In this document: one piece after another, positions 27,773 to 36,760 of the stretch
Layout: every line of letters starts with the position of its first letter
How positions within the stretch are numbered: the stretch's first letter is position 1
Origin: Ectocarpus siliculosus
Taxonomy: Eukaryota > Sar > Phaeophyceae > Ectocarpales > Ectocarpaceae
Length of the DNA stretch: 64,000 nucleotides
Assembly (NCBI GenBank): GCA_000310025.1
Contig: FN649750.1
Span: forward strand, 985,824 to 1,049,823
Direction: 5' to 3'
The notes under the pieces: generated by a model
Told to the model about the DNA's origin: nothing
The model's input: the letters and a program-made list of their open reading frames with translations, nothing else
The model's database searches: none
Program-made: the position numbers and the translations under genes

Positions 27773-27853
27773 TCAACCAAGAACTTTGCCACCGGCACAT
27801 CAACCTAGAACTTAGCCTCCAGCGCCAACCTAGCACGTATCGCCTGGGCTTGG

Positions 27854-27880
27854 GGTTAGGGTTAGGGTTAGCGTTAGGGT
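27854..27880 (+). repeat. Interstitial telomere-like array (TTAGGG)n
   Basis: Four TTAGGG units, one mutated to TTAGCG. The window continues for more than 27 kb on either side, so this is not a chromosome end. Confidence 0.9.
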
Positions 27881-27968
27881 TATTAGCCGCTATAGTGCCC
27901 GTTCGAACGCGGATAATCTATCTATTGCTTAGGAGTACACTGATTCGGTTGAAGGGCTCTTATTGGCC

Positions 27969-28050
27969 GCCCATGGGCTTCCGCCCATGGGCATGCCCAT
28001 GGGTCGCCCACGGGTCACCCATGGATCACCCATGGGAATCCCATGGGTCG
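27969..28050. repeat. Cluster of CCCATGGG palindromes
   Basis: Five perfect CCCATGGG words and several one-off variants lie in ~80 bp, about 90 bp after the telomere-like array. A similar pairing recurs at 39824-40097. No gene is seen in 28051-29193. The frame 28502-28711 (LFVQVLKKHNVLENASDE) is short and unassigned. Confidence 0.85.
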
Positions 28051-29193: not shown

Positions 29194-29319
29194 ATGGCTC
29201 TCCAACAGCAGTGCCCTGTTGTTGCGCCATGTGGCAAGATCCAAGTTGTCGAGGCTGAGATTCTTCTCCCCAATCGCAATAGCTCGAAGGTAGAGAAGGT
29301 CTGCTTCCTCGTACTCGCC
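29194..29319 (-). CDS. TPR exon A (intact, 126 nt)
   Basis: This exon is flanked by ..CCAG acceptor and |GTGAAC donor, in phase 0, and codes for exactly 42 residues starting GEYEEADLLYLRAIAIGEK and ending NNRALLLESH. It is a single kinesin-light-chain-type TPR. It is the most 3' TPR module found on the minus strand; I could not identify a terminal exon below it. Confidence 0.88.
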
Positions 29320-29562
29320 CTGGAAGGGGAGGAGAAAGCACAACACGGGTGGAACCAAGGCAACCGGGTGAAATGCCCAACAGCCACTCGGTCGTTGAGC
29401 AATGGATTCACACCAAGCCAAATATTTCCGAGCATAACCACGTTCCACACATAACAACTCTAAAAGAAAAACTGAACATTTTGACGGCTCCAAACATCTG
29501 CTTCAACCGCGTCAGGCATCCTCACGAAACCGCGAGAAATACAAAACAACCATGGCTTTCAC

Positions 29563-29688
29563 CTGTTTCTTTAACAGCAGCGCCAAGTTGTTGAGACGTG
29601 GGGCAAGATCTAGGTGATCGGGGCCAAGCGTCTTCTCGCCAATCTCAATAGCTCGACGATACAGAGAGCGTGCCTCATCGTACTCGCC
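29563..29688 (-). CDS. TPR exon B (intact, 126 nt)
   Basis: Acceptor CACAG, donor CAG|GTGAAA, phase 0, 42 codons. It reads GEYDEARSLYRRAIEIGEK, then GPDHLDLAPRLNNLALLLKKQ split across the second helix. It has the canonical TPR pattern (small residue 8, Ala 20-type positions) of the KLC subclass. Confidence 0.9.
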
Positions 29689-29800
29689 CTGTGGAGCACG
29701 CAGCGGGGTGGCGTGAGGCATCGGGACCCTCCAAAAGTTTGGAATATTCAACAAATGACGGTGAGAACACGTTCTCCTGGAAAACCCTCATGTTTCTCAC

Positions 29801-29926
29801 CTGCAGCTCCAACAAAGCCGCTCGGTTGTTTAGTCCTGTGGCCACTTGGGGGTGCTCACTCCCCAACGATTTTTCCCAAATGGCAAGCGCACGCTTGTTT
29901 AGAGGATCGGCTTGCTCACAGATGTC
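29801..29926 (-). CDS. TPR exon C (intact, 126 nt)
   Basis: Acceptor ATCAG, donor CAG|GTGAGA, phase 0, 42 codons. It reads DICEQADPLNKRALAIWEK, then SEHPQVATGLNNRAALLELQ. The first three residues differ from the usual GKY/GEY start. Confidence 0.88.
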
Positions 29927-30044
29927 CTGATACGTGATGACAGGAGAATGAGCGGGACGAAGGCTAACAATAGTGAGGCAAACGTCAGGCGGCAGGGCTC
30001 CTCAAGCTGGGACCAAATATTCAATGGTGCTCGGAGAATATATG

Positions 30045-30150
30045 CTTTACAACTCCGCTCGGAAATGTGGCAAGATCTGGATAGCCTGGGAAGCGTTTTC
30101 GTACCAATTTCAAAGCGTCGAGGGTGCAGAGGGTGTGCCTGGTCGTTATT
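30045..30150 (-). pseudogene. Decayed TPR exon D with frameshift
   Basis: DQAHPLHPRRFEIGTKTLP is followed, after a one-base shift, by GYPDLATFPSGVVK. Neither splice site matches those of the intact modules. It is a TPR fossil. Confidence 0.7.
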
Positions 30151-30263
30151 GCTCTAACAAGCAGCAAAGAAGTGGTATGAGGCAGCGATCCCACCAAGAG
30201 CTTTTCAGTGTTCTACAAATGGCGGCCGTGAGAAGCTTCCTGTCTTAGTCTGATGGTGCTCAA

Positions 30264-30305
30264 CTGGCACTCCGACAACCCCGCCCAGTTGTTGAGCAAT
30301 CCAAG
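30264..30305 (-). pseudogene. TPR fragment E (3' half only)
   Basis: LLNNWAGLSECQ matches the second helix and end of a TPR module; the donor reads TTGAG instead of GTGAG and the first half is missing. Confidence 0.6.
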
Positions 30306-30430
30306 CAAACCAGCAGCAGCTTCTAAGAACTTTGAACCTTCTACACGGAAAATTCTCACGTGCTGCTTTAACGCAACATCATTCACAGGGTAACATGAGA
30401 AACTTCCTTGGTGCTTCTGACAGATCTCGC

Positions 30431-30547
30431 CTTCTTGACCGCTGCCAGGTTGTTGAGCGCTGCGGCCAAGCTCGGGTGCTCAGGGTCGAGATTCTTCTCT
30501 TGTTCCATACACCGCTCGCAGAGTTGCTGAGCTTCAGCGAGTTTGCC
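30431..30547 (-). CDS. TPR exon F (117 nt, GC donor)
   Basis: GKLAEAQQLCERCMEQEKN, then DPEHPSLAAALNNLAAVKK, 39 codons, phase 0. The acceptor is CCAG. The site homologous to the usual donor reads AAG|GCGAGA, so splicing would need a GC donor. It is otherwise close to exon G. Confidence 0.75.
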
Positions 30548-30617
30548 CTGGAAGGGAAGTGCAAAGCACGAAACGGGTGTAGTGAACGCGTTGTACTACG
30601 CTGCGGCAAAACAAAAG

Positions 30618-30668
30618 GCCAACAACCGCGCCCTGTTGTCGAGCCTCGTGGCAAGATCTGGGTGGTTT
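30618..30668 (-). pseudogene. TPR fragment H (3' half)
   Basis: HPDLATRLDNRARLLA-like remnant. It matches the 3' half of decayed exon I, indicating that F+H and G+I are tandem copies. Confidence 0.6.
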
Positions 30669-30695
30669 CCTTGGAAAATTTAGATGCGATCCCAC

Positions 30696-30815
30696 CTGCT
30701 TGAGCTCTGCCAGGTTGTTGAGCGTTGCGGCCAAGCTCGGGTGTTCAGGGCCGAGGACCTCCTCCTCTATTGCCATGCACCGCTCGTAGAGTTGCTCAGC
30801 TTCAGTGTACTTGCC
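30696..30815 (-). CDS. TPR exon G (intact, 120 nt)
   Basis: GKYTEAEQLYERCMAIEEE, then GPEHPSLAATLNNLAELKQ, 40 codons. Acceptor TTCAG, donor CAG|GTGGGA, phase 0. Two codons are missing near the end compared with the 42-codon modules. Confidence 0.88.
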
Positions 30816-30879
30816 CTGAAGGGTAAGGGGCAAGCACGAAACGGGCGTAGCCAAGACATTGTACTGCACTGCGGGTAGA

Positions 30880-31005
30880 ACAACAGGCCAACATGGGTGC
30901 TCTGTTGGCGAGCCTCGTGGCACGATCTGGATGGTTAACGCCCAGTGTCTTCTCACCGATTTCAATCCGTCGAAGGTTTTGAATGCCTGCCTCATCGTAC
31001 TTGCC
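30880..31005 (-). pseudogene. Decayed TPR exon I
   Basis: KYDEAGIQNLRRIEIGEK, then GVNHPDRATRLANRAPML. The frame is open, but the acceptor is changed from CAG|GGC to CAAGGC and the usual donor is lost (GCCTGTTG), so correct splicing is doubtful. Confidence 0.65.
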
Positions 31006-31262
31006 TTGTGTGAGGCAACCGGACCCAAACGAACTACATTTTTTTTTTTTGTCTTCAGTTCAAATCAGCGCTCACAGCACTAGTGCTGTTTACTCGAACC
31101 CGTGGTCACACAGGAGAGCCCCTCTCTACCCTCCCCTCCTGGTACTTGGCCTTCAATTTTTTAATGCGAGAAGAGTTCAGCATCTGTGTACACACGAACT
31201 ATAATAGCGCTATCCACTAGGTAGGCCAGGAGCGGAAGCGAGAGAAAACCTCACTTTGCAAG

Positions 31263-31347
31263 AAAAGCTCGCTTACGCCGGGATTCGAACCCCTGACCTG
31301 CCCTCTAGAAGGTTTCGAGGATACCAACTAGACCACCGGGGAGACCG
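31263..31347 (-). ncRNA. tRNA-like RNA polymerase III unit (SINE head or tRNA fossil)
   Basis: On the minus strand an A box (TGGTCTAGTTGG) is followed ~30 nt later by a consensus B box (GGTTCGAATCC) and then, ~14 nt further, by TTTT. The D- and T-arm regions resemble a tRNA, but the 5' CTCCCC and 3' GTAAGCGAG cannot pair as an acceptor stem and the anticodon arm is weak. A functional tRNA is therefore unlikely. It sits in an intron of the TPR array. Confidence 0.55.
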
Positions 31348-31420
31348 GGATGCGACATGTAGTGAGTTTTGAACAATGAGCGGCTGAGATAATCCCCTTG
31401 AACAATCAAACACCTCTCAC

Positions 31421-31546
31421 CTGGCTCTCCAACAACCCTGCCCTGTTGTTGAGCCTTACGGCAAGACTTGGGTGGTTGGGACCCAGTGTCCTCTCTCCAA
31501 TCTTAATACTTTCAAGGTACATAGGGTCTGCCTCTTCGAACTTGCC
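31421..31546 (-). CDS. TPR exon J (intact, 126 nt)
   Basis: GKFEEADPMYLESIKIGER, then GPNHPSLAVRLNNRAGLLESQ, 42 codons. Acceptor CACAG, donor CAG|GTGAGA, phase 0. Confidence 0.9.
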
Positions 31547-31664
31547 CTGTGCAACAAGCAGCGGGGTGGGCGTGGTGCAAGGAAGTTTCATCAAGAGCTT
31601 TGAAATATCAATAGTCAACAATGGCCGCAGTGAGAAATTGCTGAAAATATCTGATGGCTCCCAC

Positions 31665-31790
31665 CTGGATCCCCAACAACCCCGCTCGGTTGTTGAGCAC
31701 TGAAGCATAGTTGGGATGTTCTGTGCCTGCGGTTGCACCCAGATCTCGTAGGACATGCACGAAGAGAGCGTCCGCGTCTTCGTACTTGCC
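31665..31790 (-). CDS. TPR exon K (intact, 126 nt, divergent first helix)
   Basis: GKYEDADALFVHVLRDLG, then GTEHPNYASVLNNRAGLLGIQ, 42 codons. Acceptor CCCAG, donor CAG|GTGGGA, phase 0. The A helix differs strongly from its neighbours while the LNNRAGLL part is conserved. Confidence 0.88.
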
Positions 31791-31854
31791 CTGGGAGGGA
31801 AGGAAAAAAGCACGAAGCAGGTCGAAGAAGCAACTTCAGTATATTGCGGAGGAG

Positions 31855-31977
31855 TAATTGCTCAACAACCCCGCTCGGTTGTTGAGACTCTTGGCATGTT
31901 CGGATGATCCCGCCCCAAGGATTTCTCAAAGCCTCGTGCATCGTCATGTGCAACGAGTCAGCTTCGGCGTACTTCCC
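31855..31977 (-). pseudogene. Decayed TPR exon L, two frameshifts
   Basis: GKYAEADSLHMTMHEA is followed after a shift by FEKSLGRDHPNM, and after a second shift by LNNRAGLLSN. The acceptor TCTCAG is intact. Both TPR helices remain readable only by changing frame. Confidence 0.75.
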
Positions 31978-32054
31978 CTGAGAGGGAAGACGCGAACAAC
32001 AAACGGGCAAATCCAAGGTTATTGTCCCGCACTCCGGAGGGTCACACTCAACGA

Positions 32055-32143
32055 CGCTTGCTGGTTGAGTCATTCCCTAACTCCCTTTCCCAAATACCGA
32101 TCGCACGCTTGCTATGTAGGGGCTCGACTTGTTCGTACTTGCC
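32055..32143 (-). pseudogene. Truncated TPR exon M
   Basis: GKYEQVEPLHSKRAIGIWE, then RELGND, after which the homology stops. The acceptor is CAC|GGC rather than CAG|GGC. It is the most 5' TPR module on the strand. Confidence 0.6.
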
Positions 32144-33039
32144 GTGACAGGTGGCGAGAGAAACAAAAGTGATAGAGGCTAAGATGAAGAACGTCGCGAG
32201 AACAAATAGTGCGCAAACTTCTGAAAACCAATCTGAAATTGAGAGATTTGCAATGTTGCGCTCTCGGCTAGTCTACGAAATTTTGCAACTCTGAAGCCAA
32301 CATTGGTTTGCTGATTCGCTCTCAGCGAATGAAAATGATGCGGGCTGCGTGGCATGCGGGACACGGCGAACGACACAGAGTTGGCTGTAGGCTATGAGCA
32401 CGTGCGCCTTAGGCTGTTCATTACTAGATGAAAAAGGGTATATGCAAGACGCATGTATGTGTCATTTTGCACATGTGGTGCAGGCCTGTGTGGTACTTGG
32501 CATACGCGCGCGTAAATAACGTTGCAATAAATGAGCGTAACGCGCCCAAGTAAGGCAGTAGTGGGTTGAAAAAAATCAGCCGCATTAGTCTAACGTGCGT
32601 GCGCGCCAGCAATATAGCACCTGGCGCGTCAAATCGCACGCGGGCCAATATTGTATCTGCGATAGATACTCAAGGCACAAGACCCGCGGAAACAACGTCG
32701 AGAAAAAACAAAAACAATACAATCCGTGCGTTTCCCTCACGCCTTCGCGTGACACCGACTGCACCCGTCCACCCTCAGCACAAGGTAAGTGCATACAGTC
32801 TCCTGGTACCTGTCTTTGACAAAAAAATGCAAAATCAATTCAAACTGACAACAATTTACCACACGACAACAACAACAACAACTGGCCGTCCTCCGTTGTA
32901 CAGCATCGTCAAAGGCTCTCCTCATTGCATCAAACCCCGCATGCTCGCCGAAAGAAAAAAATGTGTGGCAATCCTCCTCTATGACCCCGGCTAGCACGTC
33001 AAAGCTGAATAAAAGGTGTGAAACCGACTGTCCAGAAAC

Positions 33040-33130
33040 GCGTCACTCAACGTCGGCGGAAGCTATGATTGTTTTATTTCAACACAACCGGGGCGTCACT
33101 CAACGTATGCGGAACTAATGATTGTTTCTC
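33040..33130. repeat. Short tandem duplication, period ~54 bp
   Basis: GCGTCACTCAACGT..GCGGAA(G)CTA.TGATTGTTT occurs at ~33040 and ~33094. The rest of 32144-33265 holds a minus-strand stretch reading FDVLAGVIEEDCHTFF and FDAMRRAFDDAVQRR (32895-33005) that looks coding but has no clear splice sites. Confidence 0.6.
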
Positions 33131-33265
33131 ACAACACCATCGGACACCCTGCAAACACGCCTTGAAACGAGATATCTGCTGTTCTGGACTTGTTATTTAT
33201 TGTTTAGGTCCTTCAGGCTTGTGGACCCCAAACGGTATCCGCCTGCACGAAATGAAACAGCATAC

Positions 33266-35453
33266 CTGTTGGGCCAAAACTACACCGAGGTCGCATGCTG
33301 CCGAAGCTTCAACCAGCAATTCTTGTCTCCATTGTTGGTTCTCCTGGTCTTCAATGCCCCGTCGCGCAGCTTCCGCCCGACTAAGTCTCTGGCAAAGCAC
33401 ATGGATCCACCCATCGGCGTCAACAACATGAGGTTAGCTACGCGTGAGAAACAGGACTCCAGGGAGGAAATTGTTGGTAGCTTTAGTACGGCGTCGGGAA
33501 CGACCACGTATGTAGCGAAAACGCACCAACGGCATCGATATCTTCTACACAGAATCATACCTCCTTGTAGCCCTCTTCGGCTTGAACGTATTGCGCTGCG
33601 TCGGCCAGCAAGTCCGGTAAATAGAACCGAGTGCGACGCCAATTTTGTTGAGCAAGGCGGACCATCTCTTCTGTGATCCCGGGGGACCACATCTTGAACA
33701 GGTGGTCCGCATCCATTTCCGTGGATACCTTGAGCTCCCGCGCCCACTCGTACACCTCATGCTGGCCGTCCTTCAACTTGAAGAAGCTTCCCAATTGCAA
33801 TTGGATCTCACAAAGATGGCCGCTCACAACGGTGTTCACCTTAACGTCCCGATACCCGCTAGGCTTCCAGCCAGAGTTGAACCCATTGCGCACCCGTTTC
33901 ACATGGTGTGGCTGCACGGTAGAATATTCACAGTAGCGGAGGTAGGAGCGTGATGTTGAGGTATACCTTCGGTGAACGAGAGCATTCGCAAAGGCATCAC
34001 AACAACAACATCTTCGGTTGCAATCGTACCAACCTCTTAAACTTTCGTCTGTGTCTAGATGTTGAACCTGATAAGCTGGTGTCCACGGTGGGCTCTCCTG
34101 TCTTTCTTGCTTTCTCCTACTTCGGGATTATTATGTAGGACTAATTTTTCTCTGTCGTTGCCGTTTTGTCGCGATTGGAGACATACGGGTCTCCATGTCA
34201 TCGTGGATGCGGTGGGCTATGACCATGAAACCCATCGCTTAGGTGTGCAATCAGTGGGACTTCAGGGCGTTTTGCAAGTCAGAAGCGCATTTGCCCACCA
34301 CACCAGGGAACGAACCCATGCCGAATTTGCAACAGTTCAACTGTCGACCAAGGAAACGCTGTTCCGTTTGAGCGACCCATGCTTCAGCATCCACGGATTG
34401 TCTCGTAGTCGCAGACGCTTACGAAAAAGAGATTCACAGCCCATCACAAACATGAACTGAACGATGTTCCACGCTATCCCAACAACGTCACTCAACGAGT
34501 GGTCGATCGGGTTGCGCGGTAGATAAGAGGTGGCTCATCGCCGAATCCACCATCAAGGGAACTCCCGAGTATCATGTACTACGTTTTGTCACGACCACGT
34601 TGGCACAACTATCGCGACACCAATGCCCCAACACTTGCAACAAATTTTTGTAATTTTTGCCATCATCGTGTGCTCGTGGACGGCAAGGCGAGGTAGTCAA
34701 AAGCTCATCGTTGCAGAACAGGTTAACCTGCGAGATCCGATCACCAGCCCACGAACCGCGTCGTTGGCGAAAGGAACGGTTCCCGGATATAATTTCGTTC
34801 GGTAAAATGTTCTGCAGCAGAAACACACAGATGCTTGCCCAAAGACAACCAACTGGCAGCTTTCGGGCAGCGTTGTTGGAAAATACCACACTCTTCAAAG
34901 GCGTCCGCACCTCGACGCTCTCCATGAGGTCCTTGCACGCAAGCTCGAGATCCTCAGGTGTGTCGCAGATCACGGACACCCGAGCCATGTCTGCCAATCT
35001 TCGGACGTCCCCACCATAGGACTTTGTGGCCTTGCGCCTTGTGCTTTCGAGTGACTTGACTTCGGCATAAAGACCCGTGCGTCCCTGGTGGCCATTCACC
35101 AACTCCCGTACAAGCTTATCCAGTTGCACCTTTGCGCGGAGAGCGCCTTCACGGTAGAAGTCCAGTTGTTTCCCAAGATTCTCGTCCGCATCGCAACCCT
35201 GCGGCTCCAACCCTTCGGGCTGAAAGAGGCTGGACTTTGGATTGAGTTCTTCTATCCTGTGAAGACATTCCAACCCCCCATCCATGTTCAGTTCATAATA
35301 CAAACTGTCATACGCCCGTTCATACTTCTTCACGGTCTTGACTTGAAGGAATTTAAGCAGATTGACCTTGGCGTCTCGTTCAAGAGACAGATCACTGCCT
35401 TCCAGCTCGATCTCCATCTGGAGGAGCTCGTTAATGTCGAGTTCATCGTCCAT
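33266..35453 (-). CDS. RelA/SpoT-like nucleotidyltransferase-fold exons, probable N-terminal part of the TPR gene
   Basis: Three exons, all phase 0: 35453-34911 (181 codons), 33911-33561 (117) and 33388-33266 (41). Exon 1 has an acidic N-terminus, a helical region, and then a block aligned with the start of the (p)ppGpp synthetase fold: EVKSLESTRRKATKSYGG, then VRRLADMARVSVICDT (residues ~131-165). Exon 2 continues RVRNGFNSGWKPSGYRDV (Y201, equivalent to the GYxSlH loop) and GHLCEIQLQL (E216, equivalent to the vEiQiRT catalytic Glu), then QHEVYEW (H232). The usual His after the G loop is replaced, so synthetase activity is uncertain. Exon 3 is a Gln/Glu-rich helix (LSRAEAARRG, then WRQELLVEASAACDLG) with a strong CAG|GTATG donor. 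A CAG acceptor directly precedes the ATG at 35453, so upstream exons may exist. About 1.1 kb downstream on the same strand and phase the TPR exons begin, so I infer one RSH-TPR gene. Confidence 0.75.
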
Positions 35454-35959
35454 CTGCAGGTCAGCATTCCAGAGGGCGGGATGAAGCCCAAGATGTCAGA
35501 GCGTCAGAAAGGTGCAAGTTGCTGTTGCACGAATTGACACCAATATCAACGGAAGTACCCGTTACCGCCAGCCTCAACGAACTAACGCCATTGAGTTCTC
35601 ATCCTACAAACCTACATCGTAGCGTGCGGTGCATGAACTACACTCCGCTCAAACGCCAGCAAATGTCTTGAGCCCGTAGAAAACAACAGTGCCGCTAAGT
35701 CTTACCGGGCGGTTGCGTAACTGACTATGTTGTTCTGCACTATTTGCGCCGCCGCTAACTGTTGGATATTGATTTGGATCGATTTGACCTCTTGCAGTCA
35801 TGACGAGGCATGTGACCGGGACACAAATTTCGAGCGAATGCCAATGAAGCTCGCTGATCGTCATTGTTGTGAGGTAGGCAGAATCGGATAGCCAAGTTTC
35901 TTCTACTGACCGTTCGGTTGTTGAAATAGAAAAACACACAAGTAAATTCCATGCAAAGC

Positions 35960-36760
35960 AGAAGTTAAGCAGCGGTTGGAGAAGTTACAAAAATCTGGAA
36001 GGTATGAATCTGTGTGTGGAGGCAAAGTTTCAGTTGGAGAAGGAAGTAGACATGTGTGACGGTGAGAAGGAGAAGATGAACGTTGGTGGGTGAAAAGGAA
36101 AACACAGTCTTGGGATGGGACATGGATGGGCAGAGGATAGTACGCCAAAGGGAAGGGGAAAATGATATGACCCATAAAAAGAAGTAAATAATCAGGAACG
36201 GCAATGGGGGTGACCGAATGGGCCGAAAGTATGATGAAAACACCTAGCGCACGACGTAAGAGAGGCACAGAAGAGTGCGGAGTAGAAGGAACAACAAGTG
36301 GCAAGGACACGTGTAGATATCGGGAGTGAGGAAAACGGTTGAAGGGTGGAAAGGAGGCCACATATGCAAAGAAGGAGGAACGACGAAACAATGGATACAT
36401 GCCGCCGTGGACATAGGAGGAGGAACACGTGAGTCGAATACAACATCACGGAAGAGGAGGTGGCAACTTAGAGAGGAAGAATAGGAAAGTTGAAGGAAGA
36501 AGGCCAAGGTAGCAGAATGGAAGAGCTTTGAAGGAAGAAGGCGGATAACGAAATCACATGATGTGTGCTGGATTTGGGTAGTGAAGAGATGCAGGGTTGT
36601 TGGGGTGTCGGTAGAGTGGAGTGTGTCGTGAGGTGTAGTAGCCAAGGACGATGGATGGCCCAGCGGGGTCTACCGGAAATAGAGATAAATTGGTTGGCTG
36701 CAATCAGGCGCCACGTGGACATGAAGAAAAGGAAGGCAGGAACATAGGTGGAAGACGTAG
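35960..36760. other. Strongly purine-rich tract on the + strand
   Basis: About 800 bp with a marked G/A excess on the given strand, made of GGAG, GAAG and GGAA words, and overlapping open frames in all three minus-strand frames caused by composition. No domain was recognised. Nothing else is seen in 35454-37370. Confidence 0.55.

Follow-up and report, generated by a model that had tools for sequence, protein, structure and literature searches.

Which protein is encoded where exons resembling a (p)ppGpp synthetase stand before a run of tetratricopeptide repeat (TPR) exons, and what might it do for a brown alga? This question is raised by a minus-strand locus at positions 29,194 to 35,453 of a 64,000-nucleotide stretch of the Ectocarpus siliculosus genome (assembly GCA_000310025.1, contig FN649750.1, positions 985,824 to 1,049,823), referred to here as the window. 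In the original prediction, the locus was described as a candidate RelA/SpoT-like nucleotidyltransferase fused to a shuffled array of TPR exons. Our analysis places it in a brown-algal family of intracellular proteins in which a short helical linker connects an N-terminal RelA/SpoT-like domain (RSD) to C-terminal TPRs of the kinesin light chain (KLC) type, arranged as an array. Each of these TPRs is encoded by a separate phase-0 exon, about 126 nt long. Both the RelA/SpoT fold and the fusion of the RSD to TPRs are regarded as virtually certain.

The RelA/SpoT-type nucleotidyltransferase fold was recognized by structural comparison of a model of a relative, P0021, and not of the window protein itself. 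The nearest relatives of the RSD in both sequence and structure are toxic synthetases (toxSAS/Tas1-like). Exon A encodes N-terminal helices and the first half of the RSD, and exon B encodes the second half with the GYRD and CEIQ motifs, plus helices. The blocks KPSGYRDV, CEIQLQL and QHEVYEW, rightly assigned earlier to phase-0 exons of the minus strand, all fall in exon B. Exons A, B and C form open frames, each with a length divisible by three, and add up to 339 codons, the size anticipated for the N-terminal part. An AG at 35454-35455 lies immediately 5' of the ATG of exon A, so an upstream exon, perhaps untranslated, is possible.

Across 12 aligned RSDs, that of the window included, K109, S113, K117, D131, Y176, E191 and Q193 are invariant. 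In FaRel2, ATP is contacted by R64, K66, S70, K74, D90, R95, E145 and Q147, and the acceptor via Y128 (PMC11782079). By motif spacing and a partial Tas1 alignment, which defined residue equivalence here in place of a residue-level structural alignment, the catalytic Asp, the acceptor Tyr, the Glu and the donor-site Lys pair are kept in the RSD. The spacing equals that of FaRel2 for Lys+4 Ser, Lys+8 Lys and Glu+2 Gln, and the Lys-to-Asp and Tyr-to-Glu intervals are two residues shorter in the RSD. Exons A and B are under purifying selection, with a median ratio of nonsynonymous to synonymous substitution (omega) of 0.37 for exon A (106 finite of 120 pairs, 16 copies) and 0.19 for exon B (44 finite of 55 pairs, 11 copies), estimates that include many large or saturated synonymous distances. 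The RSD is probably an active pyrophosphotransferase.

A TPR-exon profile, built from 28 units of relatives, was searched against the whole window at E<0.1. All 12 matches lie on the minus strand 3' of exon C, and no other locus in the 64 kb was matched, in agreement with the earlier view that TPR exons follow the RSD exons. Seven TPR exons look usable (Table 1), six of them bounded by AG..GT and one by AG..GC; five are exactly 126 nt long and the remaining two 120 and 117 nt. Since every RSD exon and every usable TPR exon has a length divisible by three, TPR exons can be gained or lost without damage to the frame. The exon at 29319-29194, with a stop so close behind it, may be terminal. The suspicion that the locus is partly decayed proved right, as at least four TPR copies are decayed or relics.

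Support for the join between exon C and the TPRs comes from P0001, a public protein of 500 residues from Ectocarpus sp. CCAP 1310/34, which is itself a predicted gene model. It is identical to exon A in 166 of 181 positions, to exon B in 92 of 102 aligned residues and to exon C in 38 of 41, and its next segment after exon C is the TPR exon at 31790, with the dead copies left out. Identity extends through exon 31790-31665 (39/42, residues 324-365), exon 31546-31421 (33/42, residues 366-407) and exon 30547-30431 (37/39, residues 447-485). P0001 has its own faults: the first exon B residues are missing, the intron before the last TPR is read through, and exon 30815-30696 is unmatched. The model continues past the end of exon 30547-30431 to a stop, so one form may end with this exon. 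The link across 32144-33265, initially considered unproven, is thus supported by this model but, P0001 being a prediction with faults, not proven by it.

The exon order recurs elsewhere in the genome. Exon A was found at 16 places, this locus included, and at all 16 TPR exons follow downstream on the same strand. Exon B is present at 15 of these places and as one isolated fragment on contig C15 (G000:C15:5245647-5245790; 48 residues with 75% identity to the family query), a contig that gave no exon A match. Exon C, searched with added flanking sequence, was likewise detected at 15 of the 16 places, weakly at L018. At L015 (G000:C24:1951702-1955229), exon A carries an in-frame TAG and is followed by TPR exons, with exons B and C absent; by its sequence, this is a broken or rearranged family member. 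Together, the 16 places hold at least 103 open TPR exons of exactly 126 nt with AG..GT or AG..GC borders, a lower bound because several of the stretches analysed were truncated. GC donors occur in 6 of the 120 intact TPR exons of family loci, and the gene models P0002 and P0003 terminate precisely at one (GC after 4474 in L046), which means that public models of the family may be truncated.

The same order was observed in proteins. Among 170 retrieved proteins, scanned with profiles built from part of the same proteins, exon A sequence is present in 136, A together with B in 54, and A and B followed by 1-12 TPRs in 38; none has a TPR first. Because the order recurs elsewhere in the genome and in these 38 proteins, its occurrence at the locus is more than chance. 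The named organisms among the matches listed (for one search, 120 of 149 matches) are all brown algae: Ectocarpus, Hapterophycus, Laminaria, Ascophyllum and Sphacelaria, with the lineage checked for three. Sphacelaria contributes an RSD-type protein alone among the matches listed. Scanning prokaryote genomes yielded no confirmed relative.

The best structural matches of the TPR array are KLC1/KLC2. The most variable positions of the TPR unit are 41, 40, 17, 27, 30, 31 and 37, and five positions of the unit are taken to correspond to the canonical TPR groove positions 2, 5, 9, 12 and 13. These residues, expected to face the ligand groove, are highly variable, averaging 2.92 bits vs 1.62 for the others, a mean reached by 164 of 100,000 random sets. 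For 35 of 81 TPR exons the nearest neighbour lies in the same locus, compared with a shuffle mean of 7.9, indicating local duplication. As for the description of the array as shuffled, tandem duplication and decay are visible, but exon exchange between genes was not demonstrated. The genome also contains 27 PF00931 (NB-ARC) matches. Among three NB-ARC loci inspected with their flanks, two have arrays of the same 126-nt phase-0 TPR exons and the third has weak ones only; one exon cassette is thus combined with two N-terminal modules. At the NB-ARC locus L054 (G000:C27:3071000-3078500), two kinds of TPR exon alternate, at least six of each and near-identical within a kind, pointing to recent duplication of a two-exon unit.

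Table 1. Exons and exon remnants of the RSD-TPR locus (window coordinates).
Feature	Position	Strand	Description
Exon A	34911..35453	-	543 nt, 181 codons, phase 0, ATG start, donor GT
Exon B	33561..33911	-	351 nt, 117 codons, phase 0, AG..GT
Exon C	33266..33388	-	123 nt, 41 codons, phase 0, AG..GT; helical linker to TPRs
Decayed TPR exon	32069..32143	-	AG acceptor absent, early stop
Decayed TPR exon	about 31860..31979	-	frame lost
TPR exon	31665..31790	-	126 nt, AG..GT; spliced to exon C in P0001 gene model
TPR exon	31421..31546	-	126 nt, AG..GT
Decayed TPR exon	30889..31005	-	acceptor AA for AG, donor lost
TPR exon	30696..30815	-	120 nt, AG..GT
Relic, second half of TPR exon	30620..30667	-	
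TPR exon	30431..30547	-	117 nt, AG..GC
TPR exon	29801..29926	-	126 nt, AG..GT
TPR exon	29563..29688	-	126 nt, AG..GT
TPR exon	29194..29319	-	126 nt, AG..GT; frame continues three codons to TAG

A minus-strand repeat with a tRNA-like head was identified at 31165-31346, inside the intron that separates TPR exon 31546-31421 from the decayed exon 31005-30889. Because at least 40 genome copies with 87-92% identity were obtained from 1,214 candidates, it is considered an element like a short interspersed nuclear element (SINE); ARAGORN and Rfam reported nothing on the window. By eye, the plus strand is strongly purine-rich at about 35960-36700, just upstream of the 5' end of the gene. Also by eye, TTAGGG-like repeats form a short run at about 27853-27885, and about 27970-28045 is rich in CCCATGGG.

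In the mechanism that we propose, by analogy with CapRel, the TPR array would hold the RSD inactive and would bind a pathogen-derived or altered host protein, and ligand binding would free the RSD. The freed enzyme would transfer pyrophosphate from ATP to a nucleotide ((p)ppApp/(p)ppGpp synthesis) or to tRNA, and this would slow or kill the infected cell or signal to others. TPR exons could be duplicated, lost and perhaps alternatively spliced, which would alter the sensor; given the uniform exon phase, such changes could leave the enzyme untouched. Whether the family acts as a sensor-effector in immunity is, in our assessment, evenly poised, and the full mechanism of a ligand-released RSD under a TPR sensor, drawn from the CapRel analogy, may equally well hold or fail.

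Several results weigh against this proposal. PF04607 remained below its curated cut-off in five of eight proteins and was absent at E<=1 in the other three; it did not match the window exons, and a genome-wide search found it in two other genes only. The RelA/SpoT fold predicted for the N-terminal part is supported by the structural model of P0021 but not by PF04607. Alignment of the RSD profile to the genome's own canonical RSH with hhalign was not significant (probability 5.4), and the PADLOC defence library gave no match in five proteins. The RSD equivalents of the FaRel2 donor-site residues R64, G93 and R95 are replaced. The putative groove positions were assigned after the entropies were known. 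Their pN/pS (nonsynonymous to synonymous differences) is 0.74 vs 0.42 elsewhere in 34 near pairs; as it lies below 1, positive selection is not established, and the change is relaxed or mildly diversifying. The idea of an effector paired with an evolvable sensor is upheld in part: the fold, the exon anatomy, the recurrence, the purifying selection on the RSD exons and the groove variability are shown, and the sensing and signalling roles are inferred.

The same architecture could also serve stress or developmental signalling, with an active alarmone-type RSD anchored by its TPRs to endogenous partners (e.g., cargo or organelle proteins) and no recognition of non-self. KLC-type TPRs usually bind endogenous peptides, as would suit an array resembling KLC1/KLC2. 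Canonical RSHs, which act in plant stress (PMC3153485), are present in the genome too, at two places. Nevertheless, a family of 16 places with varying array length, decayed exons and groove-biased variability would be unusual for a housekeeping signalling enzyme, and this role seems unlikely. It is similarly doubtful that the RSD is catalytically dead and works as a binding or oligomerization module under a TPR adaptor. The changes at the R64, G93 and R95 equivalents would suit such a loss, as would the replacement of the equivalent of the His that follows the GY motif in classical RSHs and the lack of acceptance of the domain by Pfam. However, all 12 RSDs keep the metal- and acceptor-site residues (Asp, Tyr, Glu and the two Lys), and exon B is strongly constrained. 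Moreover, Tas1, a working (p)ppApp synthetase (PMC11782079), departs likewise at the R64, G93 and R95 places where the printed alignment, partial in coverage, includes them.

Two further explanations concern the locus itself. It might be a decaying copy, partly or not expressed, of a family that is itself real, as the decayed TPR exons and relics (at least four), the GC donor and the SINE within the array would suggest. On the other hand, the three RSD exons are open with AG..GT borders, six of its TPR exons are undamaged, exons A and B show low omega when compared with their nearest copies (0.37, L004, and 0.14, L046, respectively), and sister loci with long intact arrays carry decayed TPR exons as well; we consider decay of this copy rather improbable. 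Alternatively, the RSD exons and the TPR exons could be unrelated neighbours, the latter forming a TPR gene of their own or an exon reservoir; an intron of roughly 1.5 kb that holds two dead exons does separate exon C from the first intact TPR exon. This is very hard to reconcile with same-strand TPR exons downstream of exon A at every one of its places and with the single annotated chains of RSD-then-TPR order, never the reverse, and we give it almost no credence.

As a candidate RSD-TPR receptor, the family can be compared with known systems. CapRel is a RelA-fold toxin fused to a phage-sensing antitoxin domain; its C-terminal domain keeps the enzyme blocked, and a phage protein lifts the block by binding that domain (PMC9712102). 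The CapRel sensor is a C-terminal pseudo-zinc-finger with a YXXY motif, whereas the algal family is eukaryotic with a multi-exon TPR array. Exported or effector-type alarmone synthetases include Tas1/Apk1, and Rel-like domains are linked to XopAD (PMC12691689, PMC11782079). By comparison, the algal RSD is fused to TPRs, scanning of family proteins revealed no export module, and the XopAD match to the family covers the end of a 2,133-position model only, far below the whole-protein cut-off. Fungal NOD-like receptors (NLRs) with an N-terminal RelA_SpoT effector domain (PMC4986451, PMC10197012, PMC12258605) share with the family this domain as the N-terminal effector of a repeat-bearing eukaryotic candidate receptor. 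They have a NACHT in between and, among the matches listed, WD40 repeats, whereas the algal proteins have a short linker and gave no NB-ARC/NACHT match in eight proteins, ten window open reading frames or the precomputed domains consulted.

Single-repeat exons are described for the brown-algal candidate receptors NB-ARC-TPR and LRR-ROCO (PMC11378527). The NB-ARC-TPR genes share with our family the 126-nt phase-0 exon with one repeat, but carry an N-terminal nucleotide switch where the RSD family has a RelA-fold enzyme. The divRel enzymes are small alarmone synthetases, reported as synthetase-only, that occur in eukaryotes, two diatoms among them (PMC3153485), and they likewise represent synthetase-only RelA-type domains in heterokont algae; no TPR link was seen there, whereas the RSD family is TPR-linked. 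Long RSHs (Rel, RelA, SpoT, plastid Rsh) have an HD hydrolase before the synthetase domain, whereas PF13328 (HD) was found at two genome places, those of separate canonical RSH genes, neither of which is an exon A place. Full-text literature searches returned no description of a RelA-fold enzyme joined directly to a single-repeat-exon array, although Zambounis 2012 and Teng 2023 were not covered and an earlier mention is possible. Single-repeat exon arrays in brown-algal candidate receptors and RelA_SpoT effectors in fungal NLRs are already known, and the direct fusion without a switch domain appears to be new.

Tentatively, and with somewhat less than an even prospect of being right, the family may represent a second repeat-based class of brown-algal immune receptors without a nucleotide switch, in which a toxSAS-like enzyme is wired directly to a TPR sensor. 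It would then be a eukaryotic counterpart of CapRel, with a germline- or splicing-variable TPR sensor built from the cassette found in NB-ARC receptors, and a multicellular eukaryote would employ alarmone or tRNA-pyrophosphorylating activity as an immune effector. Alarmone-type chemistry has so far been associated with bacteria, plastids and a minor class among fungal NLRs; given an active enzyme and an array that senses infection, it would also serve as an immune output in an alga with independently evolved multicellularity. One exon cassette would serve two receptor architectures, and the diversification of recognition in brown algae would become directly testable.

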